From: Candidatus Sumerlaea chitinivorans
Lineage (GTDB): Bacteria; Sumerlaeota; Sumerlaeia; Sumerlaeales; Sumerlaeaceae
Reading direction: 5' to 3'
Assembly: GCA_003290465.1 (NCBI GenBank)
Contig: CP030759.1
Location: 1,393,144-1,457,143 of the forward strand
DNA length: 64,000 bases
Shown here: piece by piece, positions 4,050 to 47,616 of the stretch
Layout: each line of letters begins with the position of its first letter
Position numbering within the stretch: position 1 is the stretch's first letter
Translations under genes and position numbers: made by a program
Notes under the pieces: generated by a model
The model's input: only the letters and a program-made list of their open reading frames with translations
What the model was told of the DNA's origin: nothing
The model's database searches: none

Positions 4050-5063
4050 ATGAACCTCACGCCATTTACACGAAAAATTATGAGCGGTGACGAACTGTCG
4101 CAAGACGAAGCGCGACAAGTCGCCGAGGCTTTACTGAGCGGCGAGACCTCGCCCGTTCAAACCGCAGCGTTCCTAACCGCGCTTCATATGCGCGGAGAAC
4201 GGCTGGGCGAAGTCGTTGCTTTCGCAGAAATCTTACGAGCACGTGCCGCTAAATTTGATTCTCCGAGCGAGCCCATTCTCGACACCTGCGGGACGGGCGG
4301 GGATCACGCCGGGACGTTCAACATTTCCACAACAGCTGCCTTTATTGCAGCCGGAGCAGGTGTGCGCGTGGCAAAACATGGCAATCGCTCCGTCACAAGC
4401 CAATGTGGGAGTGCTGATGTACTCCAAGCACTGGGAATCAACATCACATGCCCCCAATCTGTCATGGAGCGCGCCTTGCGTGAGATTGGGATCTGTTTCT
4501 TGTTCGCCCCCCAATACCACTCATCGATGCGTCACGTGGCGGACGTACGGCGCGAACTTGGCTTCCGTACGATCTTCAACCTGCTCGGTCCTCTCCTCAA
4601 CCCGGCTCGCGCTCAACGCCAACTCATCGGTGTGTATAGTCGTTCCATTCAGCAACTCTACGCGGAAAGTTTGCGAGCCTTGGGTACGGAGCGGGCATTG
4701 GTGGTCCACAGTGACGATGGCATGGATGAAATCTCGACCTGTGCTCCTACCCGAGTCATCGAGCTACGAGACGGCAGAATCGAAACATTCGTAGTGGACC
4801 CTGCGGAATTCGGCATCCCTCGGGCGGAGTCCTCTGACCTCGCGGGTGGAGACGTGGCAACCAACGCATCCACGGTTGAGAAGATTTTGCGAGGCGAAGG
4901 GGGTCCGAAGTCGGACATCGCGCTTGTGAACGCCGCTGCGGCAATCTATGTCGGCGGACTTGCCGCATCGATTGCGGAGGGGTTATCCCTTGCCAAGAGA
5001 GCCATCGAAAATGGGGCGGCGTGGCAAAAGCTTGAAGCCCTACGCGAGATTACGAAGGGATAG
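4050..5063 (+). CDS. trpD: Anthranilate phosphoribosyltransferase
   Basis: This 337-residue enzyme joins anthranilate to PRPP in tryptophan synthesis. The PRPP-binding DTCGTGGDHAGTFNISTTAA motif (about 77-96) and KHGNRSVTSQCGSADVLQALG follow the family pattern closely. The N-terminal helical domain (LTPFTRKIMSGDELSQDEA) is complete. It is followed eight bases later by trpC. No other trp genes are in the window, so this is a two-gene island of the pathway. Confidence 0.95.
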   Translation: MNLTPFTRKIMSGDELSQDEARQVAEALLSGETSPVQTAAFLTALHMRGERLGEVVAFAEILRARAAKFDSPSEPILDTCGTGGDHAGTFNISTTAAFIAAGAGVRVAKHGNRSVTSQCGSADVLQALGINITCPQSVMERALREIGICFLFAPQYHSSMRHVADVRRELGFRTIFNLLGPLLNPARAQRQLIGVYSRSIQQLYAESLRALGTERALVVHSDDGMDEISTCAPTRVIELRDGRIETFVVDPAEFGIPRAESSDLAGGDVATNASTVEKILRGEGGPKSDIALVNAAAAIYVGGLAASIAEGLSLAKRAIENGAAWQKLEALREITKG

Positions 5064-5071
5064 CAACACAC

Positions 5072-5917
5072 ATGATCCTCGATGAAATTGTTGCATATAA
5101 AACAGAGTTTGTTGCCCACGCAATGCGACAGCGGCCACTGCTGGAGCTGCGCTCGGCCATCGCGGATCTGCCGCCTGCTCCTGACTTTGTGGCAGCCTTG
5201 CGCGCTAAGGACGACATCCCACGGGTCATTGCGGAAGTAAAGAAGGCTTCCCCGTCGAAAGGCGTAATCCGCGAACAGTTCGACCCCATCGCAATTGCGC
5301 GTAGCTACGCTGAGCACGGGGCGGCAGCAGTTAGCGTGCTCACGGATGAGGCGTTCTTTCAGGGACACCTCGACCACTTGCGTGCCGTTCGGCAAGCGCT
5401 CCCCACTATGCCCCTCCTGCGAAAAGATTTTACGATCCATGAATATCAGATCTACGAAGCGCGTGCTTCGGGCGCCAGCGCTGTCCTCCTGATTGTCAGC
5501 ATTCTCGATAAATATCAGCTGCGTGATTTCCAAGCATTGGCGGCCGAGCTTGGGCTGGCTGCACTGGTTGAAGTGCATTTTGAAAAAGAGGCCGACCTCG
5601 CAGCCGAAGGAGGCGCACGCTTACTCGGCGTGAACCATCGCGATCTCAGGACGTTTAACGTCGACATCACTCGAACCGAATCCATCCTTCGTTTGCTTGG
5701 GGCGGAAAGAGCAAACTTCACGATCGTGGCGGAAAGCGGAATCCAAACCCCTGAAGACGTGGTTTATTTCGCAAAATTAGGGGTAGATGCCATGCTCATA
5801 GGGGAACAGTTTATGAAGCAACCCGATCCCGGGGAGGCACTGGTACAACTCTGCACTCGGGCACGGGCTCTAGTGAGAGAGGCGAAATTGGACTCGGCTT
5901 CCGAGGATGGTCGCTGA
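5072..5917 (+). CDS. trpC: Indole-3-glycerol-phosphate synthase
   Basis: A 281-residue TIM-barrel enzyme that closes the indole ring from CdRP. The family motifs VIAEVKKASPSKGVI, SVLTDEAFFQGHLDHL, LLRKDFTIHEYQIYEAR, LGVNHRDLRTFNVD and IVAESGIQTPEDV occur in the right order and hold the catalytic Lys and Glu residues. The N-terminal segment (MILDEIVAYKTEFVAHAMRQ) is the substrate-binding extension. The gene follows trpD directly. Its last 11 bases overlap the start of the next gene, implying coupled translation. Confidence 0.95.
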   Translation: MILDEIVAYKTEFVAHAMRQRPLLELRSAIADLPPAPDFVAALRAKDDIPRVIAEVKKASPSKGVIREQFDPIAIARSYAEHGAAAVSVLTDEAFFQGHLDHLRAVRQALPTMPLLRKDFTIHEYQIYEARASGASAVLLIVSILDKYQLRDFQALAAELGLAALVEVHFEKEADLAAEGGARLLGVNHRDLRTFNVDITRTESILRLLGAERANFTIVAESGIQTPEDVVYFAKLGVDAMLIGEQFMKQPDPGEALVQLCTRARALVREAKLDSASEDGR

Positions 5918-6791
5918 AACGGTGTCAGACACGAAACCAATCGTTATCACTGGCGCGAGCGGACACACCGGCATGCGCCTCGCCAAGCGACTTGTCGAAG
6001 CGGGTCGTTGCGTGCGAGCAATTACTCGCGATCCCGCGGTGATTCCACTGGCTTTGCGGCGACGTATGGAAATCCGGCGCTGTGACCTGACAGTCCCGGA
6101 GGAGGCCCGATACGCTGTCAGGGGAGCGTTAGCGGTTGTTGCGATGACGCACATTCGCTTCGCGCCTTACATCATTGAGGCGATGCAGGCTGAAGAGGTT
6201 CGACGCGCCATCTTCATGAGTTCGACTCGCCGCTTTACGCGCTTCCCAGAAGAGACTGCTCGCGCCGTCATCGCTGGCGAGGAAGCGGTGCAACAATCCG
6301 ATCTGGATTGGACGATCCTCCGCGCTTCCATGATCTACGGTGGCTCGCAAGATAACAACCTGACACATCTCGTGCGTTGGTTGAAAAATACACCTGTCTT
6401 TCCTCTGCCGGGGGCTGGTTCCATGAAATGGCAACCTGTCTTCACATGGGACGTGATTTCCGCAATTGAAGCAGCGCTCGAACGCCCCTACACCATCAAG
6501 AAGGCATACACACTTGCAGGCCCAGAACCAATCACGCTCCGCGAAATGATTGAGACGATTTTGCGATGCATGGGAAAGCGAGTGCTTCTTGTGCCTGTCC
6601 CCATCGCCTTTCTGCGCTTTGCGGCACGCATGCTGGCTCTGGTGATGGAGCGGCCACCCATCACGCTTGATCAAATCCAGCGCCTCGAAGAGGACAAAGT
6701 ATTCGATATCAGCGAGGCCCAGCGTGACCTCGGTTTCGCCCCAATCTCCTTCGAGGACGGTATCCGACGAAAATTGGCTGGCAAGGCGTGA
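5907..6791 (+). CDS. Atypical SDR / NmrA-like NAD(P)-binding protein
   Basis: A 294-residue single-domain Rossmann protein beginning with the cofactor loop IVITGASGHTGMRLAKRLVE (about 11-30). It has LDWTILRASMIYGG and a C-terminal ITLDQIQRLEEDKVFD segment like those of NDUFA9/complex-I-type and NmrA-like atypical SDRs. The usual YxxxK catalytic pair is not evident, so it may bind a nucleotide without classic dehydrogenase chemistry. It overlaps trpC by 11 bases but nothing in it points to tryptophan synthesis. Substrate unknown. Confidence 0.7.
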   Translation: MVAETVSDTKPIVITGASGHTGMRLAKRLVEAGRCVRAITRDPAVIPLALRRRMEIRRCDLTVPEEARYAVRGALAVVAMTHIRFAPYIIEAMQAEEVRRAIFMSSTRRFTRFPEETARAVIAGEEAVQQSDLDWTILRASMIYGGSQDNNLTHLVRWLKNTPVFPLPGAGSMKWQPVFTWDVISAIEAALERPYTIKKAYTLAGPEPITLREMIETILRCMGKRVLLVPVPIAFLRFAARMLALVMERPPITLDQIQRLEEDKVFDISEAQRDLGFAPISFEDGIRRKLAGKA

Positions 6792-6892
6792 CCTCCCCTT
6801 TCCAGTGACTCCGCGCTTTCTTAGTGACCAAACCAAAATCTTCCTGTCACAGTCTCTTTGGGTGTGTGCCATCCTAAGCGCGGAGAGAGGCT

Positions 6893-9800
6893 ATGTTGGT
6901 TTGCCACCTGAATGTTCGCCGGACCTTTGCTCTTATCTTTGCCCTTACAATCGCTTCCGTCACGGTTTGCTGGGGCGGGCCGCTTGAAGAAGCGAACCGC
7001 CTTTTTGAAGAAAAGTCCTATGCGTTAGCGCTCAAAAAATACGACGAGATTTTGGCAACAAGCTCAACGCAAGCGATTGCACGAGAGGCATTGTGTCGAA
7101 AAGCAGAATGCCTCATCGCCCTGCACGAAAATGCGGCGGCGGAGCGGACACTCAGCGAGCTGGAAAAGTCGGCGGAAGAAGATCGTTGGACTGCGATTGC
7201 GGCGTGGAAGCTTGCCTTTTTGGCAGGCCAACGTGGCTTGTCACCCGAGGACACAAGCCAAACGCTTGCGAGATTGGACCGAGCAGAAAGGATTCTCTCC
7301 GTCGCCGCCCCCTCCTTGCTCACCGATCTCTACCGAGACGTCGTGCGCACGATTGCTCCTCAAGTTCCATGGGGCAATGTCGAATGGCGAGTCCGCTTCT
7401 TGCCGTATTACGACAAACTCATCGCCAAACTTAAGGATCCAAACGAAATTGCGGAGGCACATTGGGCGAAGGCGCAATTCCGGCGCGGCCTGCAAGAACC
7501 AGACAGTGAGCGCCAGTGGCTTGATGCAATGAGAATGCTTGTACGGGAATTTCCCGACACCGCGGTGGCGCCGCGCGCTCAAGCTGAGCTGGCCCGTCAT
7601 GTTCAGGCTTCGGGAAAACTTGCTGCGGCCTTAGCTGAGTGGAAGCGCTTGCTCGAACGTTGGCCTCAAAGCGAGGAGGCCCGACAGGCGCGGGAAGAGA
7701 TCCGTGCCATTACTCTTGAGTACGTTTCGATCACCCCACGGCAGTTTCAAGTCTCGCCAAACGAACGAATTGAGTTGCTCCTTCAGGCGCGGAATCTTCA
7801 TTCGGTTTCAGTCGCGCTGTATCGAGTTTCGCCGAAGCAACTTCTGGAAGCCGGAGATCCGGACAATTTTAATCTGAGCGTCTTCGTCTCTGGCACACCC
7901 GTCCTGAGAAAAGAGGTTCAACTCCCGATCGGCGAGGACTATCGGCCCACGACGACAAGCGTTGTGCTGCAAAGCGAAGCCACCGAGCGAGGCGAGCGCC
8001 TACCCAAGGGACTTTACGTAGTGGCGGCACAAGGGGGCAATGCAAGCGCCTACCACATTTTTGCGGTCAGTGAACTTCTCCTTGTGACCAAACCGGCGGG
8101 TCAACGACTGGATGTGTGGTCCGTAGATGCCACGACGGGCCGTCCAATCGCTGGCGTGGAAATAAGCCTTCGCGGTTCGGGCAAACAGGCTGCGACGCAA
8201 AGCAAGACGCAGAGGCTCAGTTCGCAACTGGATGGGGTCCAGTCCGTTCGAAGCGATGGTAATGGGTTGGCTTCCTTTTCAATTGAGTCACGCCGCGGGG
8301 CACTCATTGTGGCTCGATTTGGGGAGGACATTGCTTTCGTCAGTCTGCCGGCGTATGCGACAGAACGTTGGGATAGCAGGAACGTTGCGTACGTTTACAC
8401 GGACCGACCCGTCTATCGGCCCACAGAGAAAGTCGGCTGGAAAGCGATCATACGTGTGCAACGAGAGGGCAAGTACGAGAACCTAGCGGGCCAAACGTTT
8501 CGTGTCGAGGTCACCGACTCTCGTGGCGCCCGAGTCCTACAAGATGAATTTGTCGCAAATGAGTTTGGCACGATTTCCGGCGAAGTCGCGCTTGGTCAGC
8601 AGGCGCCGCTGGGAGTCTATCACATTCACGTTTCCGATCGAGCCACCCGCACCCACGGTTATGCCAGCTTCCGGGTGGAAGAGTACAAGAAGCCTGAGTA
8701 CGAGGTCCGTGTCTCCACCGTCGAGAAGATCTACAAAGTGGGGAGCACGATCCAAGCTCGAGTGCAGGCGCAGTATTACTTTGGAGCACCAGTGGCCAAC
8801 GCACACGTTCGGTACGAGGTCCGCAGGCAACCGCGGTGGTGGTGGATGTCGTATGAGCGCATTGCGCAAAGAGGGCAAGACTTACCTGATTGGTTTGAAT
8901 CTGAACGTGCAGATCAAAGAGTGAAGCGACGGGCCGGGGGCGCTGAAATTGTGGCGACGGGCGAAGGAAGTACGGATGAAAAGGGAACGTTTGAATTCGA
9001 ATTCACTGCCGAGGCAGTTGGGAAAGGCCAAAAGATCGCCCAATCACAATTCGAGAGTTACGAATTCGTAATAGAGGCCACGGTAACGGACGCAAGCCGC
9101 CGCGCTATCAGTGGCGCTACAAGCGCCATTGTTGGCGAGAAGGCACTGGTGGCACTCGTCTCAGCGGAGCGCTCTATTTACGTCCCCGGCGAGACGGTGA
9201 AAGCACGCATCGCAACGCGCAATCTGCGCGGAGACTCGGTAGCATCGAGCGGCACACTCTATGTGGAAAAACTACAGTGGGATCCGGCTACGGAGAAAGA
9301 TCTTGTAACGACCATTGTGGAAGAGCGCATTCGAGTTCCGGCGGAAGGCGAATGGGTCTATGCGTGGCGAGCACCGGAGGGACAAGCCGGACGCTATCGC
9401 ATCCTTTACATTGCCGACGATCCGTTTGGCGGCACAAGCTCGGGCAAAACCGAAATCACCATCGCAGACCCATTCACGCGGGACATTCAAGTGCGCTACC
9501 AAGGCATTCAGCTTGTCTTGGATAAAGGCAGCTATCAGCCCGGAGAAGTCGCGCGAGTTCTTGTGCTGAGCGAATGGGTCGATGCGCACGCTTGGCTATG
9601 GGTGGATACAGGCACCGGACATATCGAACAAAAGGTTTTGCCTCTGCGCTACCGCACGACGTTCGTAGAGCTGCCAATCACCGAAGCATTTGTGCCGAAT
9701 TCTGAGCTGCATGTGATCATGGTGCGTGATAAACACGTGTTCCGCGACTCGAAAGAGATCATTGTCCCCCCGACACGGCAAGTTCTCAACATCCATGCCC

Positions 9801-27169: not shown

Positions 27170-27378
27170 AGGCAATCTTCTCCACCTCTGACCAAGTTCG
27201 CAACCCACATGATTTGCCGACCTACTTCCCTTAGAAGCTCTTTGGGGAAGCAAGACAGTAAGTCCTCTCCGCTCGGCTTCCCCAAAAGATGCACAGACTT
27301 GCGATTTCGGCTTGTCGGCCGCTTTATGCACCCTACTTTGAAATTGTGAATCTTACGAAAGTCAAAGAAGAAATACTT

Positions 27379-28362
27379 GTGAGAAAGACACTGCACCGCC
27401 TGAGCTACGTGCTGCTTGTGATTCTGGCCTGTTGCACTTGGGATCTCGGGAAAGCGTCGGATGAATTCTCTGGCGAGAAAGTCTTTCGCATTGGTTACCT
27501 GCCAAGTGATCCCGAGGCACAAATCTCAACGGGAGTTCTATACGACCTTAGGGAGTTTCTGCTCGGGCGGCAAGCCGTACGTCAAGCGATGGCAGAGGAA
27601 GGAGTTCAGGATATCGCTCTGCTGGCAGCGGACTCACACGAGAACTTGGTGCAGCGAATGTCCCGCAACGAATTTGATTTGGTCTTTTGCTCGTCGGTTG
27701 ACTTTGTGACTCAGCAGGGCGACTATGAAGCACGGTTCCAATTGCGACGGCCAGACGATAGCTTTGACCCACGGGGCGAGCGGGTATTTCGCAAAGGGGT
27801 CATCTTTGTAAGCAATCGCAACCCACTGTACCGATCGAATGCCTCCCAAACTGCGATCGCGGATATGCTGACCACAACCAAACTGGCCCTGGTAAGTAGC
27901 TCAGCCGCTGGTTACTATTATCCGTGCCTGAAAATCGCGCAGTTGAACTCGAACAAACAGCTTCCCCAAAACATCTTGTTCTGCGAATCGTCAGAGGAAG
28001 CCGTAAAAACGGTGATTAACGGCATCGGAGGGAGTGTGAGCGCCGGTGCTTGCGAAGCAGGTGTGATCGAAAAGGTCTTAGAGCAAGGCGGTTTGCTGGC
28101 AAAACGCGACGAATTAGTTCAAATCCTGCTGGAAACCGACCCTATTCCAGCGGATCCCGTTGCCCTCCGTTCTGAATGGCTACCCCGCTACTCACCGCTC
28201 GGCCTCGCGATCTGCGAAGCGCTTCAGGCATTTTTCACTCCGGAGCGTGGCCTTCCTCGACTCGAAAATTCCTCATCAGAAAAGTTCCGAGACCTGCGAG
28301 AAAAGCTGGACGAGTTTTGGCAAAAACGTCCGTCTACTGTTTCCTCAAGCCGCCTCCAGTAA
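27379..28362 (+). CDS. PhnD-like periplasmic phosphate/phosphonate-type binding protein
   Basis: About 327 residues from GTG 27379 (VRKTLHRLSYVLLVILACCT), which gives a clean signal peptide; longer starts are possible. The mature part opens with VFRIGYLPSDPEAQISTG and has LLAADSHENLVQRMSRNEFD then VFCSSVDFV, the PhnD/SsuA-like class of solute-binding protein for oxyanions. No ABC permease or ATPase gene is nearby, so it may serve a remote transporter or act as a sensor component. It faces the pilus operon divergently. Confidence 0.62.
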   Translation: MRKTLHRLSYVLLVILACCTWDLGKASDEFSGEKVFRIGYLPSDPEAQISTGVLYDLREFLLGRQAVRQAMAEEGVQDIALLAADSHENLVQRMSRNEFDLVFCSSVDFVTQQGDYEARFQLRRPDDSFDPRGERVFRKGVIFVSNRNPLYRSNASQTAIADMLTTTKLALVSSSAAGYYYPCLKIAQLNSNKQLPQNILFCESSEEAVKTVINGIGGSVSAGACEAGVIEKVLEQGGLLAKRDELVQILLETDPIPADPVALRSEWLPRYSPLGLAICEALQAFFTPERGLPRLENSSSEKFRDLREKLDEFWQKRPSTVSSSRLQ

Positions 28363-28467
28363 TTTTTATACTCGTCGTCATCTTTCCGTAAGGTTTGGGG
28401 GGGTAATAGGGTGATGAACGCAGGAATGATCTGCGCTCGACTATTCTTTGAGCAAAGGAGAAGAATC

Positions 28468-29157
28468 ATGAATTCAGCATTCAAGGTGACGCTGCTCGTC
28501 ACCACCCTTGCCTTGGCTTTCCAAGCAGTCTCGCAGAAAGTTGTAGCCCAAGAGAACAACGCGACGCGAAGTGTCGCGAAAGAATCCGAATTGGCTTCGG
28601 ACAAGAAGCCGGAATCCGGGAACGTGGCTCCCGCGAAGGCTACCGAGGAAGAAGCCGGCGAAACCGCCGTGGAGTTAGAATCTGTCCCGTCAGCGGTCCA
28701 GTCAGCTATCAAAGCCGCAGCCGGTCCGCAGGGGAAGATCACCAAGGTGGTTAAGGAAAGCGACGAAGGGGCTGAGGCCTATGAAGCGGATGTCGCGGTG
28801 GGTGGTGTGGAAAAATCCGTAAAAGTCACCGCAGACGGACACGTCGTCGAGATCGAGGAGAAGGTCCAGCCCGATCAGGTGCCGGCAACCATCCAAGCCG
28901 TGGTCAAAAAAGCTGTTCCAGGCGGGAAAATTAAGGAAGCGCTTGCCGTGACCGAACATTACTACGAATTCGAGGTCGTAGAAGATGGCAAAGTGAAAGA
29001 GGTCAAGGTGTCGCTCCTCGGGAAAGCCGATGTAGAAGACGAATCAAGCTCAGGCCAAATGAATGAGGAGAACGAGGCCAAGGAAGAAAAGGCCGCACCT
29101 GAGACAAAACCCGCAGAAAACCGTTCGTCGGAAGAGAAAGAGACAGAGAAAAAGTAA
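28468..29157 (+). CDS. Secreted protein with duplicated PepSY-like domain
   Basis: A 229-residue protein from ATG 28468, with AAAGGAG upstream. A signal peptide (1-28) ends near KVVAQ. Two PepSY-like (BLIP-type) repeats follow at about 73-130 and 137-187: VPSAVQSAIKAAAGPQGKIT and VPATIQAVVKKAVPGGKIKE each lead into strand pairs. The tail (190-229) is almost all Glu, Lys, Ala and Ser. PepSY-like proteins bind or inhibit peptidases or sense envelope state, and are often linked to two-component systems, as here. Partner unknown. Confidence 0.65.
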   Translation: MNSAFKVTLLVTTLALAFQAVSQKVVAQENNATRSVAKESELASDKKPESGNVAPAKATEEEAGETAVELESVPSAVQSAIKAAAGPQGKITKVVKESDEGAEAYEADVAVGGVEKSVKVTADGHVVEIEEKVQPDQVPATIQAVVKKAVPGGKIKEALAVTEHYYEFEVVEDGKVKEVKVSLLGKADVEDESSSGQMNEENEAKEEKAAPETKPAENRSSEEKETEKK

Positions 29158-29182
29158 GTACGATTCCCTCCCACCCCAAAGC

Positions 29183-29218
29183 AGAGAGGAGGGACGAGAC
29201 TGCCGCTCCCTCCTCTCT
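29183..29218 (+). terminator. Strong hairpin after the PepSY-like gene, possible terminator
   Basis: AGAGAGGAGGGA (29183-29194) pairs perfectly over 12 bases with TCCCTCCTCTCT (29207-29218), with a 12-base loop. It lies 25 bases after the stop codon. No U-tract follows, so it may stabilise the 3' end or terminate only partly. Confidence 0.5.
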
Positions 29219-29388
29219 CGGTGTGGAAAACCAGAGCGAAAGCCACCGCACAAAATTACGACCAAGCATTATTGAGATGTGATACAGGTAGAAGACAAAG
29301 CCCCCTACAGTGGTTTTAGAGGCAACGTAGGGCAGATTGCATCGAGCCCGACAAAAGGCGATACCAAGAGTTTAGAAGACAAGAACCG

Positions 29389-30933
29389 ATGAATCTAACC
29401 CACCAAGTCTATAAAACACCTACCGGCGAGAGCCGTTCCATGATTCAGGAGCCAGTCAACGCATTTACCCACAGATTTCGACTGATAGCAGCAGGCATTT
29501 TCGTGGTTGCTGCAATCCTTTATTTTACAGCCTTGGGAAAGACGCCTCTGCGCGTGAATGCCGAGATTCGCTGTCATGACGTGATCGCCAACATGCTGGA
29601 ACGCAGCGACTACATCGTGCCTATTTACAATGGGCAGCCCCGTTTTCACAAACCACCTCTGTTTTACTGGACCGTTGCGGCTACAAGCAAACTGGTTGGC
29701 GGGTTCAATCTCACAACGCTCCGCATCCCACCTGCTTTGTTTGCGTTGGGTGTCTTGGGGCTTATTCTCTGGTGGGGAAAGATTCTGGGGACCCAGCGCG
29801 AGGCGCTTTTAGCGATGGCGCTGTTGGCAACAACTTATATGTTTGTGTTACACGCAAGACGGGGCAGTTTTGAAATGTTGCTGACGCTGCTTTGCAACCT
29901 TTCGGTCCTCCTCCTGTACTTGTGCGTGCAGAAACCGTCGTGGCTAACGGGATTAGGTGGGACGCTCGCCTTCGGTCTTGCATTTCTTGCAAAGGGCACG
30001 CCGGCCCTACTCTATGTGCCGCTGGTGCTGTTTGTGTGGCTTGCGTTGTCGCACCGCTTACGTATGATCTTCCGGTGGCAGGTGGGCACGCTTGCAGTTG
30101 TGGGCATATTGATTGCGATTTCGTGGCATCTCTACGTGATCGCTTTTCGGCCAGAAAGCCGTCAGACAATCTTTTCAGAGCTTCTCTTGCCCGCAGGAGT
30201 CAAAGTCGGCGAGACCAGTTCTGCGCAACACAGGGAGGCTTTCTACTTCTACTTAGTGAATATCTGGCGGGCAGCCTTTCCGCTGTCGCTACTCATCCCA
30301 CTTACCGCATTTCACGTGTGGCACAAACGTGGCTATCCCCCTGAGAGGCCCGAACGTTTGCTTGTACTCATGGTGGTAGTTCCGTTCCTTGTCTTTTCCT
30401 CCATTCCCATGAAACAGGACCACTACCTGCTTCCAGCGATGCCGGCGCTTGCCCTTCTTAGCGCACGCGCTATTTTTGATGTGATTACCCAGTGCGCGCA
30501 ATTGTCGCGAAAGTGGGTGACTGTCCCGGTGCTTGTAACGTGCATTATTTTATTAATTGCTTCCCCTGTGGTCGTTCTTGGGTTGGTATTAGTCGGCGAT
30601 TGGCTTCGCATCCTCGCTGTGATGGTTGGACTCTTGTGCGCAGCTCTTGGGGTAGCAGGTCTGCTCGCATTGCGTCGCGCGGCTACCCTAAATGGCCTTG
30701 GAATCGCGCTCATCGGCACTGCTTTGGTTTTTTGGTGCTATTTTACGGTGATCCGGCCGGTTGAAGATGGTTTTGGCAGTGGGCGTCTTTTCAGTGATCC
30801 GACCTATTTGGCCCAGAAGGAGGCATGGGATCAAAAGTTCGAGCGCTACCCTCTGCTCCGCAAACTCTTGGATGTGGATCGTGGCCTGAAACGCAGCAAG
30901 CAAATTCAAAAACCCGTACCGGATGAGTGGTGA
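29389..30933 (+). CDS. ArnT-like integral membrane glycosyltransferase (GT39/GT83 fold)
   Basis: A 514-residue protein with about 11-12 membrane segments. The first periplasmic loop, PLRVNAEIRCHDVIANMLE, then YNGQPRFHKPPLFYWTVA, matches the ArnT/PMT_2 catalytic loop (acidic-Arg motif, then the KPPLxYW box). These enzymes move a sugar from a polyprenyl phosphate carrier onto an acceptor such as lipid A or protein on the outer face of the inner membrane. A two-component system follows 37 bases later. ATG 29440 is an alternative start. Donor and acceptor unknown. Confidence 0.8.
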   Translation: MNLTHQVYKTPTGESRSMIQEPVNAFTHRFRLIAAGIFVVAAILYFTALGKTPLRVNAEIRCHDVIANMLERSDYIVPIYNGQPRFHKPPLFYWTVAATSKLVGGFNLTTLRIPPALFALGVLGLILWWGKILGTQREALLAMALLATTYMFVLHARRGSFEMLLTLLCNLSVLLLYLCVQKPSWLTGLGGTLAFGLAFLAKGTPALLYVPLVLFVWLALSHRLRMIFRWQVGTLAVVGILIAISWHLYVIAFRPESRQTIFSELLLPAGVKVGETSSAQHREAFYFYLVNIWRAAFPLSLLIPLTAFHVWHKRGYPPERPERLLVLMVVVPFLVFSSIPMKQDHYLLPAMPALALLSARAIFDVITQCAQLSRKWVTVPVLVTCIILLIASPVVVLGLVLVGDWLRILAVMVGLLCAALGVAGLLALRRAATLNGLGIALIGTALVFWCYFTVIRPVEDGFGSGRLFSDPTYLAQKEAWDQKFERYPLLRKLLDVDRGLKRSKQIQKPVPDEW

Positions 30934-30970
30934 TGCATAGGGTGACTGATCCGCGGAGGAGCTCATAACC

Positions 30971-31675
30971 ATGAAACTCTTAGTCGTCGAGGATTCCCGC
31001 CGCCTTCGCGAAGCGTTAGCGTCGGGACTCCGGCGCGTGGGTTACGCGGTGGACACTGCTGAGGACGGGGAAACGGGATGGTTACTGGCAGTTTCTGGCA
31101 ACTATGACGTGGTGATTCTCGATCTTATGTTGCCCAAGCTCGACGGGCTTACTGTCCTTCGGCGATTGCGCGAGCGCGGGAACAATGTGAATGTTCTGGT
31201 TCTTACCGCGAAAGATGCCGTACCAGACCGGGTTGCGGGCCTTCGTACGGGGGCGGATGACTATCTCCCCAAGCCATTTGCATTCGAGGAACTTGTGGCT
31301 CGCATCGAAGCGCTTGTGCGGCGCAAGCACGGCACGAAGAACCCCCGCATTGTTGTCGGCGATCTGGTGGTGGACACTGCGGCGCGCTCAGTCAGCTTGC
31401 GTGGCCAACAAGTGAACCTCACCGCGCGCGAATATGCGATTCTGGAGTACCTCGCGATCCACCGGGGGCGAGTTGTGACAAAGCGCCAGCTCGAAGACGC
31501 GGTTTATGACGAGCGGGTCGAAGTCGGGAGCAACGTCATTGAATCCGCGATCAGTATCCTTCGGCGGAAGATCGATCGCCCGGGTGCTCCCTCATTTATC
31601 CAAACCCGCCGCGGGTTCGGTTACGTCCTAATTGCCCCAGAGGAAGCGGACTCCGTTTGGGAATCCGTCCCATGA
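30971..31675 (+). CDS. OmpR/PhoB-family response regulator
   Basis: A 234-residue two-domain regulator. The receiver domain (1-115) has the acidic pocket VVEDSR, phospho-acceptor Asp51 in VVILDLMLPK, Thr in VLTAKD and Lys in YLPKPFAFEEL. The C-terminal winged helix (about 130-225) contains LTAREYAILEYLAIHRGRVV and TRRGFGYVL, the OmpR DNA-binding form. GGAGGAG lies upstream of the ATG. Its stop overlaps the kinase start (ATGA), so the pair is co-translated. Target genes may include the neighbours (inference). Confidence 0.95.
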   Translation: MKLLVVEDSRRLREALASGLRRVGYAVDTAEDGETGWLLAVSGNYDVVILDLMLPKLDGLTVLRRLRERGNNVNVLVLTAKDAVPDRVAGLRTGADDYLPKPFAFEELVARIEALVRRKHGTKNPRIVVGDLVVDTAARSVSLRGQQVNLTAREYAILEYLAIHRGRVVTKRQLEDAVYDERVEVGSNVIESAISILRRKIDRPGAPSFIQTRRGFGYVLIAPEEADSVWESVP

Positions 31676-33123
31676 AACGAAATCGCTCCATACAAGCGAC
31701 CCTCGTTGTGGGACTTGTGGGAGCGCTTGCGCTGCTATGCATCTTGATCGGAATCACCACCTACCGGATGGTACGGCGTGGCCTTGTGGGCGAGTTTGAC
31801 TACGCTTTGCTGTCCAAGGCTCGGGCAATTGCGAGCCTTGTCCAAATCAAAGCTAATGGCGAGCTTGAATTTGACTTCAGCGGGGAGGCGATGCGCGAGT
31901 TCAGCTTTCGTCACCCGCAAGAGTACTTCGAGATCCGCTACCTTGATGGCCAAGTGCTGGAAAAATCCGAGTCTCTCGGTGACCACGAGCTGCCCCAAAT
32001 CGTAAATGATAAACCCACATTCTTAGACGTGCCACTGCCCGACGGGCAATCAGGGCGAGCCGTTTGCCTAACCTTTCATCCTGCGTGGGACCATGAAGAC
32101 GAGGAAGAAACGCGCAGCCACCAAGAAATGCCAGAGGAGGTAGCACCAACCAGCGTCACGCTCTCGATCACTCTTGCTCGTGAACGAGGCACATTGGATC
32201 AACGGTTGAACGCAACATTAGGGGCGTTGGCGGTGGGAAATGTGTTGCTTATCGTTGCTGCGGTCGGCGTGGTGGTTGGCGTCGTGCGATGGGCGCTCCG
32301 CCCTCTCCACTCGTTAGCAGCCTTTGCAGAATCTGTCACGGCCGAGAAACTCAACTTGCGGATCTCGGCCACAGGCTTGCCCGAGGAATTGGTCCCAGTA
32401 GCCCAACGCTTGAATGATCTCCTGAAACGGTTGCAGGATGCCTTTGAGCGGGAGCGGCGTTATTCAACGGACGTGGCGCATGAATTGCGTACACCTCTTG
32501 CGGAAATACGTACGTCGCTTGAGGTGGGATTGCTCGTGCCAGAGGACCACTCGGCCCTTCGAGGCGGCGCGCAAGAAGCTTTGGAAGCCGTCAAACAAGC
32601 GGAAGAACTTGTCTCAACTCTCCTGTGGCTCGCGCGCTGCGAAAAGGAAGCAACACTTGAGAGCCTCGAGGCTGTTTCGTTTGTCGCAGCATGGGAAGCA
32701 ATCCGCGAATCGATTGAGAAGCAGGCCGAGAAGCGTTGCATTGAGCTTGCGGTGGCTATGGATTCAGAAGCGACCGTACCCGCGCGGCCCTCCTTGCTTG
32801 TAGCCTGCTTGCGTAACATCATCGAAAACGCAGTCGAATACACTCCAGACAAGTGCAAAGTCGAGATTGCCGCTGGGATTGAGGATGGGCTCGCGTACTG
32901 CAGGGTGCGCAATCCCGCTCCTCACTTGACCGATGAAGACGTCGAGCGCCTTTTTGAGCCCTTTTGGCGTAAGGATACTTCGCGTTCCGACCGCACCCAC
33001 AGCGGTCTTGGGCTCACCATCACTCGTTCGCTCTGCAAATTGATGGGATTAAGCGTCACGGCAAAACTCGACCCAGACGGCTGGTTAGCCATTTCCATCT
33101 GTCCCCAACGCGCTCGCCCGTAG
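31672..33123 (+). CDS. Membrane sensor histidine kinase
   Basis: A 483-residue kinase. It has a membrane helix at about 10-30, a periplasmic sensor region of about 150 residues that includes an acidic stretch HEDEEETRSHQEMPEEVAP, and a second helix at 185-207. HAMP (207-260) and the H-box STDVAHELRTPLAE with phospho-His270 follow. The ATP-binding domain has NIIENAVEYTPD (N-box), a weak G1 region and RSDRTHSGLGLTITRSLC (G2). The start is the ATG inside the regulator stop. The acidic sensor patch could bind cations or cationic peptides, as in PhoQ, but this is inference. Confidence 0.92.
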   Translation: MKRNRSIQATLVVGLVGALALLCILIGITTYRMVRRGLVGEFDYALLSKARAIASLVQIKANGELEFDFSGEAMREFSFRHPQEYFEIRYLDGQVLEKSESLGDHELPQIVNDKPTFLDVPLPDGQSGRAVCLTFHPAWDHEDEEETRSHQEMPEEVAPTSVTLSITLARERGTLDQRLNATLGALAVGNVLLIVAAVGVVVGVVRWALRPLHSLAAFAESVTAEKLNLRISATGLPEELVPVAQRLNDLLKRLQDAFERERRYSTDVAHELRTPLAEIRTSLEVGLLVPEDHSALRGGAQEALEAVKQAEELVSTLLWLARCEKEATLESLEAVSFVAAWEAIRESIEKQAEKRCIELAVAMDSEATVPARPSLLVACLRNIIENAVEYTPDKCKVEIAAGIEDGLAYCRVRNPAPHLTDEDVERLFEPFWRKDTSRSDRTHSGLGLTITRSLCKLMGLSVTAKLDPDGWLAISICPQRARP

Positions 33124-33265
33124 ACAAACATGCGGATTTTGTCCGCTCCGTAAGGTTCCCGTAACTATGTGGTGCTACTCGGTAGCTCAGTCGCCGACGC
33201 TCCCTGCGGTAAGCCCGGGGCGCTTGGCAAGAGACGAATACCAGAAAAGTTAAGGAAGCGCCATC

Positions 33266-33829
33266 ATGCAAACCTACCGAGGTTTTACCCTGATTGAGTT
33301 ACTTGTTGTTGTAGCCATTGTGGCAATCCTTGCAGCGATTGCATTGCCAAATTTTTTAGAGGCCCAGACACGAGCAAAGGTTGCCCGGGCTCGCGCTGAC
33401 CTGCGCACCGCGGCCACCGCACTCGAAGCTTATGCAGTGGATGAAAACCGTTACCCACCGGATCAACCCCGTCCAGATCTGGAGGGTTTCTTTGCGGCAG
33501 CCCAGCTTACCACACCCGTCGCGTACCTAAGCAGTTTGGCGGCGGTCATTGATCCATTTCGGCGAGATCTCGATTTTGTGCCTGCGGATGCCGACGAGGT
33601 TTACCGCTACTGGAACCTTTCCGAACGCCGCACGAGTCCGCTCATGCTTCCAGCGGCAGAAAACGGTTGGCTAAACTACGGTGCATGGGTTGTGAGTTCT
33701 GCGGGACCGGACCGGGTGGACAACTATCCAACAAGTGGAGCCCATCGCTTTGAATCTCTACCCTACGACCCCACAAACGGCACCGTTAGTAGCGGCGATA
33801 TTCTTCGGTCAGCGAAAGGGGGACAGTAA
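33266..33829 (+). CDS. GspG-like pseudopilin with prepilin leader
   Basis: A 187-residue protein with a six-residue leader and the prepilin motif YRGFTLIELLVVVAIVAILA, then AALPNFLEAQ-type sequence (IALPNFLEAQTRAKVARARA) and a short C-terminal domain. RADLRTAATALEAYAVDENR with YPPDQ is the GspG signature. This style is very common and multi-copy in some uncultured and planctomycete-like bacteria, where its exact role is unclear. It stands alone after the two-component pair, six kb from the pilus operon. TAAGGAAG lies upstream of the ATG. Confidence 0.85.
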   Translation: MQTYRGFTLIELLVVVAIVAILAAIALPNFLEAQTRAKVARARADLRTAATALEAYAVDENRYPPDQPRPDLEGFFAAAQLTTPVAYLSSLAAVIDPFRRDLDFVPADADEVYRYWNLSERRTSPLMLPAAENGWLNYGAWVVSSAGPDRVDNYPTSGAHRFESLPYDPTNGTVSSGDILRSAKGGQ

Positions 33830-33889: not shown

Positions 33890-34016
33890 AAAAGGCGGTT
33901 GGCTCCCGGTGTGCGGCTGGCGACAGCGCCGCCCGAACCTGGTCAGGCCCTGACGGGAGCAGCCATAAGGTAACGGGCTGTGTGTCAGTCTGCGCATCGG
34001 GAGCCGACCGTCTTTT
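33890..34016 (+). ncRNA. ffs: Small bacterial signal recognition particle RNA (4.5S type)
   Basis: The apical Ffh-binding hairpin is clear: GAACCTGGTCAGGCCC, then loop TGAC, then GGGAGCAGCCATAAGG, which keeps the asymmetric-loop AGCAG and the TCAG side. The ends close by a long stem, AAAAGGCGGTTGGCTCCC with GGGAGCCGACCGTCTTTT, with few mismatches. The terminal T-run plus a second TTTT at 34019-34023 probably ends transcription. The tetraloop is UGAC (URRC class) rather than the usual GGAA. No Alu domain is present. The 3' end is four bases from the lpxB stop. Confidence 0.93.
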
Positions 34017-34020
34017 GCTT

Positions 34021-35223
34021 TTACGACGGTCTTTCAAGGCGCTCAGCGGACTCGCTTTGCTGAAGGTAATGCAGTATTTCTTCCGCGGCACGAGCGCTCG
34101 CACCACTTCTTCCCATCGCACGGCGGACACGCGCCAACCCCTCGCGCATCCGCGTGAGCTGCTCGGGTGAGCAAATGATTTCCAAGGCCGCCCGAGCTAA
34201 TCGCTCAGGAGTCGCGTCGTGTTGTAACAGCTCGGGGACAATCATTTCGTTGGCGATAATGTTCACAAGCCCCACCCAAGGAATGCGCAAAACCGCCTTC
34301 GCAAATAGCATCGTCGGCAGTGAAACTTTATAAAAAATCACCATCGGAACATCCGCCAGAGCAAGCTCGAGGGTGGAGGTACCGCTCTTGCACAGGGCAA
34401 AATCCAAAGCAGAGCGAATAGAGGCTAACTGCCCGTCGGCAATCGCCACCCGCAGGTGGGGATATCCGCGCACATGATTTTCGATAAGTTCCCGCGAGAC
34501 TGTCGTGGCTTGAGGTATCACAAATGCAGCATTAGGTAATTTGCGTCTGATCGCGACTGCTGCTTCAAGGAGTACGGGGAGGTGTCGGCGCACTTCGGGA
34601 ATCCGACTGCCGGGAATGAGTCCCACCACGTATGCATCGGATGGTAAACCGAGCCGTGCAAGAACCTCGGCGCGCGAGTGCATGGGGCCTTCGTGGTCAA
34701 GAAGCGGGTGGCCCACGTAGGCCACTGGAACCCCTTCGCGTCGGTAAAGCTCAGCCTCGAAGGGTAGGATCACCAACATCAGCGAAACAGTGTCGGCAAT
34801 AATGCGCAGCCTGTGCTTATTCCAAGCCCACACCTGCGGCGAAATATAGTAGATAACTGGAATTCCAAGCTTTTTTGCCTCTTGTGCAAGACGCAGGTTG
34901 AAGCCCGGGTAGTCCACAAGGACCAATGCGTTCGGGCGGCGACTGGCAAGCAAATCCACCGCGCGGCTGAAGAGGCGCCGAAGTGTGGGATAGTGACGAA
35001 TCGCTTGCGACAACCCGATGATTGGCACCCGCTGTGCAAGATTCTCCACGAGCTCTAAACCAGCGTGAGCCATGGCTTCGCCCCCGAATCCAAAGCAGTG
35101 CAGGCTGGGGTCGCGCTGACGAAGCTCGCCGATTAGGCGGGCTGCATGCTGATCCCCAGAGTTCTCGCCGGCGACAAACATGAGTGAGCGCGCCGACGAT
35201 GTATGGAGTGCAGCTTGACTCAA
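34021..35223 (-). CDS. lpxB: Lipid-A-disaccharide synthase
   Basis: A 400-residue GT19 enzyme joining UDP-2,3-diacylglucosamine and lipid X to form the lipid A disaccharide on the inner membrane. It has FVAGENSGDQHAARLIGEL, FGFGGEAM, VDYPGFNLRLAQEAKKLG, YYISPQVWAWNKHR, FEAELYRREGVPVAYVGHPL and LIPGSRIPEVRRHLPVLLEA. The start is TTG 35223 with AAGGCGGA upstream, which also covers the previous gene's stop; ATG 35181 is the alternative. It proves a lipid-A-bearing outer membrane. It lies downstream of a Gfo/Idh/MocA oxidoreductase. Confidence 0.94.
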   Translation of the reverse strand: MSQAALHTSSARSLMFVAGENSGDQHAARLIGELRQRDPSLHCFGFGGEAMAHAGLELVENLAQRVPIIGLSQAIRHYPTLRRLFSRAVDLLASRRPNALVLVDYPGFNLRLAQEAKKLGIPVIYYISPQVWAWNKHRLRIIADTVSLMLVILPFEAELYRREGVPVAYVGHPLLDHEGPMHSRAEVLARLGLPSDAYVVGLIPGSRIPEVRRHLPVLLEAAVAIRRKLPNAAFVIPQATTVSRELIENHVRGYPHLRVAIADGQLASIRSALDFALCKSGTSTLELALADVPMVIFYKVSLPTMLFAKAVLRIPWVGLVNIIANEMIVPELLQHDATPERLARAALEIICSPEQLTRMREGLARVRRAMGRSGASARAAEEILHYLQQSESAERLERPS

Positions 35224-35236
35224 CGGGTGTTCCGCC

Positions 35237-36208
35237 TTAGAAATCCTTAAAGTATTTCTCCCACCGTTCCTTTACAAGTCTTGATATTTGAACGGCCAAG
35301 CTTAGAGCATCTCGAGCCTCTTCCCCACGCACCATTGGCTCGCTTCCCTGCGCTACGCACTCGAGGAAATGCTTCAATTCCACCTTCAACGGCTCTTGTT
35401 TCTTCATGGCTTCTTTTGTTCGAACGATGGTGACATTTGGAGTCCCGGGAGGTGCGTTGGGGTTCTTGATCCTCCGATAGATTTCGACCTCTTGGTTAAT
35501 GTAGTCAATGGAGATATAGGCGTTTCTCTGGAAAACCCGAATTTTGCGTTTCCGTTCCGGCGTAACACGACTGGCTGTAAGATTCGCGATGCAGCCATTT
35601 TCAAAGTGGATTCGTGCGTTTGCAATGTCTTCGTGGGTACCGTACACACCCACGCCAGCAGCTTCTACGTGGACCACTTTGGAGTTTACGAGTTGTAGAA
35701 TGATGTCAAGGTCGTGGATCATGAGGTCCAATACGACCCCGATATCTTTGACCCGCGGGTCATAGGGGCCGAGGCGGTGCCCCTCGATGAAAGCTGGGTC
35801 CCGCACAATCTGGCGTAGGCGCATGATGGCAGGGTTGAACCGCTCGATGTGCCCAACTTGGAGAATGCGGCCTGTCCGGCGAGCAACCTCGATTAGGTCC
35901 CGCGCCTCTTCCTCGGTGGTGGTAATGGGCTTTTCCACAAGCACATGGACACCATGCTCGAGGAAATCGCGCGCAAGCGCATGATGCAAGACCGTAGGAA
36001 CAACAATGCTGCACGCATCTACCTTGCCAAACAGTTCCCGGTAATCGGTGTAACCGCTCACCTTGAACTGCCGGGTGATGCGTTGCAGTGCTTTCGGGTC
36101 GACGTCGGCGACGCCAACCAATTCACATTCAGGAAGTTCAGCGTACACGCGGGCATGATGCTGACCTAAATTCCCCACGCCCACGACGCCTACGCGGATT
36201 TTTCGCAT
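35237..36208 (-). CDS. Gfo/Idh/MocA-family oxidoreductase, possibly lipid-A related (GnnA-like)
   Basis: A 323-residue NAD(P)-dependent sugar-type dehydrogenase. The N-terminal Rossmann domain begins RVGVVGVGNLGQHHARVY, and the catalytic-face motif VLVEKPITTTEEEA holds the conserved EKP. The C-terminal domain has DLMIHDLDIILQLVNS. It is 13 bases upstream of lpxB in one operon. In several phyla a member of this family sits in the lpx cluster. GnnA makes the 3-keto sugar used for 3-amino-glucosamine lipid A. That role here is inference from position only. Confidence 0.75.
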   Translation of the reverse strand: MRKIRVGVVGVGNLGQHHARVYAELPECELVGVADVDPKALQRITRQFKVSGYTDYRELFGKVDACSIVVPTVLHHALARDFLEHGVHVLVEKPITTTEEEARDLIEVARRTGRILQVGHIERFNPAIMRLRQIVRDPAFIEGHRLGPYDPRVKDIGVVLDLMIHDLDIILQLVNSKVVHVEAAGVGVYGTHEDIANARIHFENGCIANLTASRVTPERKRKIRVFQRNAYISIDYINQEVEIYRRIKNPNAPPGTPNVTIVRTKEAMKKQEPLKVELKHFLECVAQGSEPMVRGEEARDALSLAVQISRLVKERWEKYFKDF

Positions 36209-45501: not shown

Positions 45502-47616
45502 TTAGTTGGGGCCGGCTGCACCCCCAGTGAGAATCGTGCTTGTGACTCGGTCAAAAACCTGGGTGAGAGGGCGCGTCGAAGTGAGATCTAAGCGCCCCGG
45601 AATGGGTTGAGCAAGTTCCGCCAGCATGTGGCTGACCTCCTTGGGGAGGTCGGGAGATGAGGCTGTACTCTCGCCTTGTTTGAAAAAAGCAATCACCGCA
45701 CGCGCAGCTGCATCTTGCGGCGCGCCTTCCAACGCTTGCTCTGCAAAAGTACGCGCTGCCACTCGGTCCCCGTTGCGCATTAGCAACATAGCGAGATTTG
45801 CCGAGGCCCGGACGTCCGACGGGTTTGCGCGCAAGACATGAAGGTAGAGTTCTGCGGCCTCTTGAAAAAGCTGTAGCTTCTCGCAAACCACTGCAAGATT
45901 GTTGTAAGCGCGCAGACCTGCGGGTTCGACTTGAATCGCGCGCATGTACGACTCTGCAGCCTTCGCCAAATTGCCGCGCGCAAGCGAAGCGTTGCCTAGC
46001 ACCAGATAAGCGAGCGCGAGGTTTGAATCCGCCGCAATAGCCTTTTCGGCGTAAGCCTCAGCCTCTGCAGGATGTTTGTTCTCTAATGAGGCGATCGCCA
46101 AAAGTACCCACTCCGCTGCGGGCGAGCCGGTTGCGCGGATTCCTGTTCCGAGTGGTTGGTCGTCACTCCATCGGAAATCGATTTGCGGCCATGCATAGCA
46201 CGAGAGGCTCCCAACAAGAAGCACAAGCGCGACAGATTTTGCCACGTTGAGCCAAGCTCGGTTTGCAAGCGCCGATCCAAGAAATTCCACACCCAGCCCC
46301 GCGAAGATGAAAAGAGGCGGCAAAAGCGGCAAGCGGAGGCGGCCTGCAACGAAGAACATGAGAACACTAACGCCCGCGAGCCCCATGTAGAGGAGGAGCC
46401 AGCGCAGCTTCGGAGAGCGCCTCACTCCAGCGTGCGTGAGTCCCAAAATCGCAAGCGCCAGAACAAGGGCATAATTCACAGGCAATAGGCGCAAGACCAG
46501 TGACTCATTCGCACGAGCAAAACCAAAGTCGCGGTTATTGCGCACCTCATGATTGTTAAAAAGAGCTATCAGTTTTCTGGCGTAGAGTCGCGCGGCCTCC
46601 CATGGGTGTTCGAGAAGGTAGCGAAGCGCTTTACGATACCAATACGCAGAAAGCTCCGACGGGCGAGGAGCGGGGTCGCCAGCGTAGAATCGCAGGAGGC
46701 CTTGCTGGGTCCCGTACTGATCCACAAAATACCCAAGCTTGGCGTACTCTTCAACCGTGTCGCGGTACTCGTTCCCTTGTTCCGTCAGCTTCGGTAGCGT
46801 GACGTTGGTGCCATTTGCTGAAGGATTGTTGCCGATCCAGAAATTGATCCCACCTTGCGTGCAGATGAGCGCCGGATCGCCTTTGCGCACATTGTAGAGC
46901 GTGGGCATTCCTACAAGGATGCTAAATGGCAGGCACGCCGCAAGCAGCCACACAATCGGGAAACTGTTCAAACGACGGCGAAATAGGACAATCACACCCG
47001 CGACAATCATAGGGCCGCAAATCAAGAGTGCATTTGGCCGGGTAATTGCAGCGAGCCCTCCCAGTAGGCCAACGTACAAGGCAGGTCGAATTGAGGTGGC
47101 CTCAAGCGATCGAAGGAAGAGAACGAGAAAAGCGGTAAGCAAGAAGAGAAAAACTGTATCGTTCAAAACTTCCGCCTCGTAAAACACAAGCGGACCGTAG
47201 AGAGCGGCGAGTAACCCCGCCGCTACCCCTCCGGCGAAGGTTCCACACTGGATGCCAAGGAACGCAATTAGCACGCAGAACGCAGCGCCGAGCATTAGTT
47301 GGATCAACGGCGCAAGAATTAGTGCGGACGAACCGGCAAGCTTGTAGAGCACCCCTAAAAACAAGGTGTAGAGTGGAGGGCGAAAAAGACTCTCCGGGCC
47401 GAGTCCGCTCCCTTGGGCCCAGCGTTGCGCGGCATCAAACCACCATCGGCTGTCAAGGAGGGGAGCACCAAAATACGGTTTGGTTGAAAGCTCGTAATAG
47501 TAGGCAAGACGCACGACGAGCGCAACCGATCCAACGAGCAAGAGCACCCTGCGAATAAGCGTGGGATCGGGTCTCAGCGTCGGAACATCAATATCGTTGG
47601 GTTCAGCAGTTTTCAC
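45502..47616 (-). CDS. Polytopic membrane glycosyltransferase (PMT_2/GT39-like) with C-terminal TPR repeats
   Basis: A 704-residue protein. Residues 25-480 hold about 11 membrane helices; the periplasmic loop after the first, YYYELSTKPYFGAPLLDSRW then GLGPESLFRPPLYTLFLGVL, resembles the PMT_2 donor/acceptor site. From about 505 to 650 come four TPR-like repeats (ALAYLVLGNASLARGNLAKA, RAYNNLAVVCEKLQLFQEAA and ASANLAMLLMRNGDRVAART). Such fusions are frequent in planctomycete-like and other uncultured bacteria. The acceptor is unknown. The start is GTG 47616, overlapping the dnaE stop by four bases (GTGA). Confidence 0.8.
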   Translation of the reverse strand: MKTAEPNDIDVPTLRPDPTLIRRVLLLVGSVALVVRLAYYYELSTKPYFGAPLLDSRWWFDAAQRWAQGSGLGPESLFRPPLYTLFLGVLYKLAGSSALILAPLIQLMLGAAFCVLIAFLGIQCGTFAGGVAAGLLAALYGPLVFYEAEVLNDTVFLFLLTAFLVLFLRSLEATSIRPALYVGLLGGLAAITRPNALLICGPMIVAGVIVLFRRRLNSFPIVWLLAACLPFSILVGMPTLYNVRKGDPALICTQGGINFWIGNNPSANGTNVTLPKLTEQGNEYRDTVEEYAKLGYFVDQYGTQQGLLRFYAGDPAPRPSELSAYWYRKALRYLLEHPWEAARLYARKLIALFNNHEVRNNRDFGFARANESLVLRLLPVNYALVLALAILGLTHAGVRRSPKLRWLLLYMGLAGVSVLMFFVAGRLRLPLLPPLFIFAGLGVEFLGSALANRAWLNVAKSVALVLLVGSLSCYAWPQIDFRWSDDQPLGTGIRATGSPAAEWVLLAIASLENKHPAEAEAYAEKAIAADSNLALAYLVLGNASLARGNLAKAAESYMRAIQVEPAGLRAYNNLAVVCEKLQLFQEAAELYLHVLRANPSDVRASANLAMLLMRNGDRVAARTFAEQALEGAPQDAAARAVIAFFKQGESTASSPDLPKEVSHMLAELAQPIPGRLDLTSTRPLTQVFDRVTSTILTGGAAGPN

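Follow-up and report, generated by a model that had tools for sequence, protein, structure and literature searches.

PepSY proteins have recently been found to act as direct regulators of sensor kinases. In Vibrio, DbfQ binds the sensory domain of the kinase DbfS and turns it towards phosphatase activity, and lipopolysaccharide (LPS) defects and membrane-damaging antimicrobials activate DbfR (PMC12714742); an earlier study had linked DbfS to the response to polymyxin B (PMC5636140). The DbfQRS operon is autoregulated, modules combining PepSY with a two-component system (TCS) are known from several phyla, and across phyla such neighbourhoods are reported to occur more than 60 times as often as expected by chance; we found no mention of Sumerlaeota among the groups listed there (PMC12714742). 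Here we describe a four-gene locus in a 64,000-nucleotide stretch (hereafter the window, meaning the whole of the DNA analysed) from "Ca. Sumerlaea chitinovorans" BY40, a member of Sumerlaeota with a genome of 3,289,105 bp in one contig, from a phylum without a pure culture as of 2021 (PMC8092238). The + strand carries a gene for an exported PepSY protein (28468-29157), one for a membrane glycosyltransferase (GT) of the GT-C/PMT_2, ArnT-like type (29389-30933), one for an OmpR-family response regulator of the CusR/QseB/BasR type (RR, 30971-31675) and one for its histidine kinase (HK, 31672-33123). We consider it on balance probable that these genes form an envelope TCS under PepSY control, similar in kind to DbfQRS, with a GT-C sugar transferase encoded alongside.

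The locus shares with DbfQRS of Vibrio cholerae an exported PepSY protein next to an RR/HK pair (PMC12714742), and differs from it in the adjacent GT-C gene and in a predicted binding-site repeat that is conserved across one phylum. DbfQ has 135 amino acids and one PepSY domain (PMC12714742), whereas the protein encoded here, starting at an ATG (a GTG at 28411 is also open), has 229 amino acids and two PepSY-like lobes followed by a charged C-terminal tail; small size and a single domain describe DbfQ and need not define the class. The match to the Pfam PepSY_like model (E 9.4e-5, 23.1 bits) lies under the cut-off of 28.3. In the AlphaFold2 model, built on an 18-row alignment, a confident two-lobed core spans about residues 64-191 with a block pLDDT of about 95-98, and its best fold matches in the PDB were Bacteroides periplasmic PepSY_like/DUF2874 proteins (3db7, E 3.7e-5; 3due, 6.1e-5), so the "double PepSY" reading of the preliminary description of this DNA holds. 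TM-scores of these matches were low (0.28-0.47), probably reflecting a different placement of the lobes. A sequence search of the PDB with the PepSY protein found no match, nor did one with the binding protein encoded directly upstream. Many PepSY relatives bear poly-Asp/Glu C-terminal tails (L037, L038, L039, L042, L043, L048, L049 and L051), which are possibly cation-binding. Among the papers listed by literature searches, none was by its title about the combination of PepSY, glycosyltransferase and TCS, nor about PepSY together with a bacterial ArnT.

For phylum-wide counts we used 40 Sumerlaeota genomes, including that of BY40 (G000), and the PepSY protein was matched in 18 of them, BY40 itself being one. 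Neighbourhoods were read at 19 loci from 17 other Sumerlaeota genomes, the PepSY genes being called by phmmer. PepSY stood with an RR, an HK or both at 15 of the 19 loci, or at 16 if L053 is counted, where RR and HK are present and the PepSY match is weak; at L039 and L052 the PepSY gene lies close to a contig end, and at L045 it has no nearby TCS. An ArnT-like GT was found within the cluster at 7 of the 19 loci (L035, L036, L040, L042 twice, L050, L051 and L052), six of which show the RR/HK pair as well. At L042 (genome G016) the order is PepSY-RR-GT-HK-GT, with one GT between regulator and kinase. The order seen in the window, including the binding-protein gene upstream of PepSY, is identical in G029, which belongs to another genus and also has LpxB and a Gfo/Idh gene nearby, and is kept in G030 up to the contig end. 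The GT and RR genes share 4 nt in G029 and 20 nt in G030, and in the window the RR stop overlaps the kinase ATG at 31672 by 4 nt (a TTG at 31657 is an alternative kinase start). The earlier proposal of a module of four same-strand genes is thus borne out by the order kept in relatives and by the phylum-wide adjacency of PepSY and RR/HK, and gene organization supports the view that the four genes form a module. The BY40 genome has 29 PMT_2 matches (24 over the cut-off, one of these only together with its neighbours), and when the 28 others were compared with a profile built from the linked GTs plus E. coli ArnT, L069 was the one strong match (1.4e-78, followed by 2e-9), so that recurrent chance linkage of this GT subfamily appears unlikely.

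The region upstream of the PepSY gene carries a direct repeat of the sort for which the preliminary description had suggested a search. A predicted regulator box, GTCATctttccGTAAG, lies at 28377-28392 on the + strand, 91 nt before the PepSY ATG, with half-sites GTAAG/GTCAT (TTAAG in some relatives) and the same 11-bp architecture as the PmrA box of Salmonella, a YTTAAK repeat (PMC10927774); a literature search on half-sites of the PmrA direct repeat returned no paper. We examined 160 nt of sequence before each PepSY start, in the window and at 18 loci, omitting L053, whose PepSY start is not clear. In a motif-free count, exact 5-mers recurred at an 11-bp period in 11 of the 19 upstreams, against 0 to 6 for the other periods between 8 and 24. 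The strict motif [GT]T[AC]A[GTC]-N6-same was likewise present in 11 of 19, always on the gene strand, while first-order Markov shuffles gave a mean of 0.42 and a maximum of 3 in 500 rounds. When the first base was freed (NTMAB-N6-NTMAB), 18 of the 19 PepSY upstreams matched, 64-141 nt before the start, against a shuffle mean of 1.25 with a maximum of 4 of 19 in 500 shuffles, 0 to 4 at other periods and 2 of 19 on the opposite strand; the exception was L050 of G001. Judged from this arrangement, the module may be autoregulated through the predicted box.

The stricter pattern GTMAKN4YCGTAAS had six matches in the whole genome, against one for the reversed-pattern control. Two of the six lie in this locus, one before PepSY and the other, GTAAGgttcccGTAAC, at 33150-33165 (+), 116 nt before a pilin-like gene (N_methyl/T2SSG, 33266-33829, +); in a separate pattern search of the genome, the latter box was the only match with no mismatch to the query. 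The pilin-like gene is thus a candidate second target, which the regulator may drive in this species. Of the remaining matches, L059, L060 and L063 lie within open frames that are 100 codons or longer and L064 in none, and on this distribution we claim no wider regulon. A homologue of this pilin-like gene is the upstream neighbour of PepSY in G021 (L047, 8341-9075).

Between the PepSY and GT genes an RNA hairpin at 29183-29218 (+) folds better than its shuffles (z -3.06), which agrees with the hairpin proposed there in the preliminary description, and G029 and G030 have hairpins of different sequence in the corresponding position (z -4.12 and -2.90). We rejected a canonical intrinsic terminator, as the hairpin has no T-run and was not listed by the terminator scan.

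The transferase belongs to the GT-C/PMT_2 superfamily, its Pfam PMT_2 match (E 3e-16, 60.5 bits) exceeding the cut-off of 26.1. With ArnT (GT83; 5EZM/5F15) it shares the GT-C fold as judged by sequence (5ezm, E 1.5e-7), K88 (the Lys of KPP) and K202. It differs from ArnT at two positions of weight. The first Asp of the DE motif in the periplasmic loop of GT-C enzymes (D55 in 5ezm) has been described as critical, and D158 as touching the acceptor and forming a pair with K203 (PMC7801869; PimE, PMC12041525). In our alignments the loop reads VNAEIR, with A58 at the position of the catalytic Asp and E162 at that of D158. The NCBIfam ArnT model gave it 83.1 bits where 567 are required. The KPPLxYW loop from which the preliminary description had recognized an ArnT is present as KPPLFYW, but it is not an ArnT signature, since E. 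coli ArnT has KPIAGYW and many GTs of the phylum have KPPL. We therefore rejected an assignment to ArnT by motif, on the missed cut-off, on A58/E162 and on the lack of a full-length ArnA match in the BY40 genome, where the best matches are separate partial homologues of the two ArnA halves.

A58 and E162 occur together in seven Sumerlaeota GTs, those of the window, G029, G030, G031 (contig 8), G004 (contig 68), G002 and G001, and A58, E59, R61, K88, E162 and K202 are invariant in six aligned rows. The G001 enzyme is split into two halves at the ends of two contigs, which were aligned as separate rows and which we take to be one gene. Four of the seven have PepSY and RR within 1.5-kb flanks, and the other half of the G001 GT adjoins PepSY-RR-HK (L050). 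Among the other 23 best GT loci a kinase was found at one (L120); loop motifs were read at 19 of these 23, all except L111, L117, L122 and L125. From a wider search (291 genomes, 251 of them outside Sumerlaeota) the best loci were aligned, adding 14 rows of which L186 is G001 again, L182 is G037 (Sumerlaeota) and the others are from outside the phylum. The loop Asp is also lost in several of these rows outside Sumerlaeota (for example V in L176, A in L181 and Q in L180), while Glu at the D158 position was found in the seven Sumerlaeota members and in no other aligned row. In a 15-row tree the A58/E162 GTs grouped with a support of 0.976; a strict clade was discarded, since with the 14 further rows they fell into two neighbouring groups with weak support between them, one of which includes L176 from another phylum.

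In G004 the A58/E162 GT is flanked by a DegT-type aminotransferase and a family-2 glycosyltransferase, and genes for a LAB_N protein and a Gfo/Idh oxidoreductase come next. This neighbourhood resembles a pathway of the Arn type for a lipid-linked sugar; from this context we argue that the A58/E162 type may well be an active enzyme. It is conceivable, though in our estimate unlikely, that in the linked GT, as a distinct GT-C type, the catalytic acid has shifted to another site; the protein would then either use Glu162 (or Glu59) as the base or have become a receptor for lipid-linked sugar that informs the PepSY-kinase pair. Were the receptor version true, the module would measure the glycolipid pool under its own control.

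Several smaller observations concern this enzyme family. The G004 cluster (L127, contig 68, 4558-9737) comprises aminotransferase, GT, family-2 GT, a double LAB_N and Gfo/Idh, and is possibly a complete Arn-like cluster; Gfo/Idh genes lie 3' of the A58/E162-type GT in both G031 and G004. In G016 (contig 3, 64032-65702; L145, L153 and L115) LAB_N and ArnT-like GT matches fall in 765-codon frames, apparently a LAB_N-GT fusion. The TCS-linked ArnT-like GT of L040 (G007, 4781-7339, -) is about 850 amino acids long, with a C-terminal extension in which, by eye, we take a GNHD-type phosphoesterase motif to be present. A plasmid collection searched with the GT gave no match, and a contig search with the GT alignment returned two Sumerlaeota GTs and one unlinked Bacteroidetes GT in which the loop Asp is present. 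Another PMT_2 match in the window (46930-47382, -) scored weakly with the ArnT-like profile.

A number of points weigh against a DbfQRS-like module with a built-in transferase. The box motif was defined on the very sequences on which it was counted, so its weight rests on the comparison of periods and on the controls rather than on the raw count, and the control upstreams of other open reading frames (ORFs) in the same loci (relaxed motif in 6 of 184, strict in 2 of 184) are those of mechanical ORFs, some of which contain coding DNA. The upstreams of E. coli eptA, arnB, qseB, cusC and phoB all carry such an 11-bp repeat, and since qseB, cusC and phoB are among them, the box marks OmpR-family regulation and not one subfamily. 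There is no box upstream of the GT gene in G000 (start at 29389), G029 or G030, which goes against a repeat shared by both upstream regions, for which a search had been suggested earlier. A fold search with the kinase returned generic kinase-core matches only. A GT is absent from most PepSY-TCS loci, and in Sumerlaeota the flanks read around ArnT-like GT genes mostly hold no TCS; from these two distributions together we regard the GT as an accessory output.

By analogy with DbfQRS, the Sumerlaeota PepSY protein should restrain the kinase and be induced by the regulator. At rest it would dock on the periplasmic domain of the kinase and bias it towards phosphatase activity, and this restraint would be lifted when the envelope is disturbed or when divalent cations or the state of the lipids change. 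The phosphorylated regulator could then bind the predicted repeat and raise PepSY as feedback, while partial read-through of the hairpin could also raise the coupled GT, RR and HK genes, the GT putatively adding a sugar from a polyprenyl-phosphate carrier to a glycoconjugate that is lipid-linked or of the lipid A type. With a predicted site before nearly every PepSY gene, a module present throughout the phylum would provide an independent, deep-branching test of the principle that PepSY proteins regulate kinases, with the transferase as a concrete candidate output. These predictions are approachable on purified parts even though the phylum had no pure culture as of 2021, and the active-site swap of the GT poses a separate question of enzymology.

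The preliminary description had pointed towards a polymyxin defence of the PmrAB/PhoPQ type, in which the pair would control a true ArnT that modifies lipid A with 4-amino-4-deoxy-L-arabinose (Ara4N). Enterobacterial PmrAB (BasRS)-EptA/ArnT does share with this locus an OmpR-type pair, the 11-bp direct-repeat architecture of the box (predicted here) and a membrane sugar transferase as putative output; the regulator (Response_reg and Trans_reg_C in Pfam) is 40% identical to BasR, the GT is related to ArnT, and LpxB is encoded at 34021-35223. However, the family cut-offs were missed by the pair (PmrA 199.2 bits against 330, PmrB 130 against 314) as they were by the transferase, and the PepSY protein sets the locus apart from PmrAB. 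The GT has Ala at the catalytic Asp and Glu at D158, ArnA was not found as one protein in the genome, and LAB_N was found in 0 of the 8 genomes of the organism's own family (f1). The acidic patch noted earlier in the kinase is present in the sequence as HEDEEE, next to a stretch with pLDDT below 50, but 13 aligned relatives do not keep it as such, and a conserved metal site there was ruled out. The specific reading of Ara4N addition to lipid A is therefore not supported, and we regard a polymyxin defence of this type as decidedly unlikely.

A metal-responsive system of the CusRS/CopRS type, in which the acidic PepSY protein would buffer or sense a divalent metal and the GT would be an incidental neighbour, seems to us unlikely. 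The top-scoring NCBIfam models for RR and HK are indeed those of the heavy-metal pair, TIGR01387 (207.4 bits against 279.2) and TIGR01386 (204.3 against 292.55), but both scores lie under the curated cut-offs. Identity of the regulator is highest to CusR among four E. coli regulators (CusR 42%, QseB 41%, BasR 40%, PhoB 32%), many PepSY relatives carry the poly-acidic tails, and the nearest solved folds include entries titled calcium-regulated or calcium-binding (3db7, 3u1w). Against this, no metal efflux gene was seen among the scanned window genes adjoining the module, and the GT is present in 7 of 19 clusters and overlaps the regulator gene in two relatives. A further candidate, overlooked in the preliminary description, is the PhnD-like periplasmic binding protein (PF12974) whose gene lies directly upstream of PepSY on the same strand (27379-28362, +; GTG start, ATG at 27289 also open). 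Were it the true ligand input of the kinase, as in TctCDE-like systems, PepSY would be secondary, and both its position, the same in G000, G029 and G030, and the 2CSK_N domain of the kinase would fit; yet 34 of the 40 Sumerlaeota genomes have a single homologue each, mostly on a contig other than that of the PepSY-TCS locus, it adjoins PepSY-RR-HK only in those three genomes among the mapped loci, and no box stands upstream of it in the window. We therefore rejected the protein as a core component, regarding it as a lineage-specific neighbour, and consider its role as kinase input highly improbable. With a PepSY-controlled envelope TCS as the preferred reading, the PepSY protein would dock on the 2CSK_N-type periplasmic domain of the kinase; 2CSK_N, HisKA and HATPase_c are above the Pfam cut-off and HAMP is below it.

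The genome has only one other OmpR-type regulator above the cut-off, which is PhoB-like and adjoins a PhoR-like kinase. Downstream of the pilin-like gene, an Rfam scan returned as its sole match a bacterial small SRP RNA (RF00169, 52.1 bits) at 33907-34002 (+), adjoining lpxB. The LpxB gene (34021-35223) in turn stands beside a Gfo/Idh oxidoreductase gene (together 34021-36208, -), an adjacency that may point to a modified sugar in lipid A.

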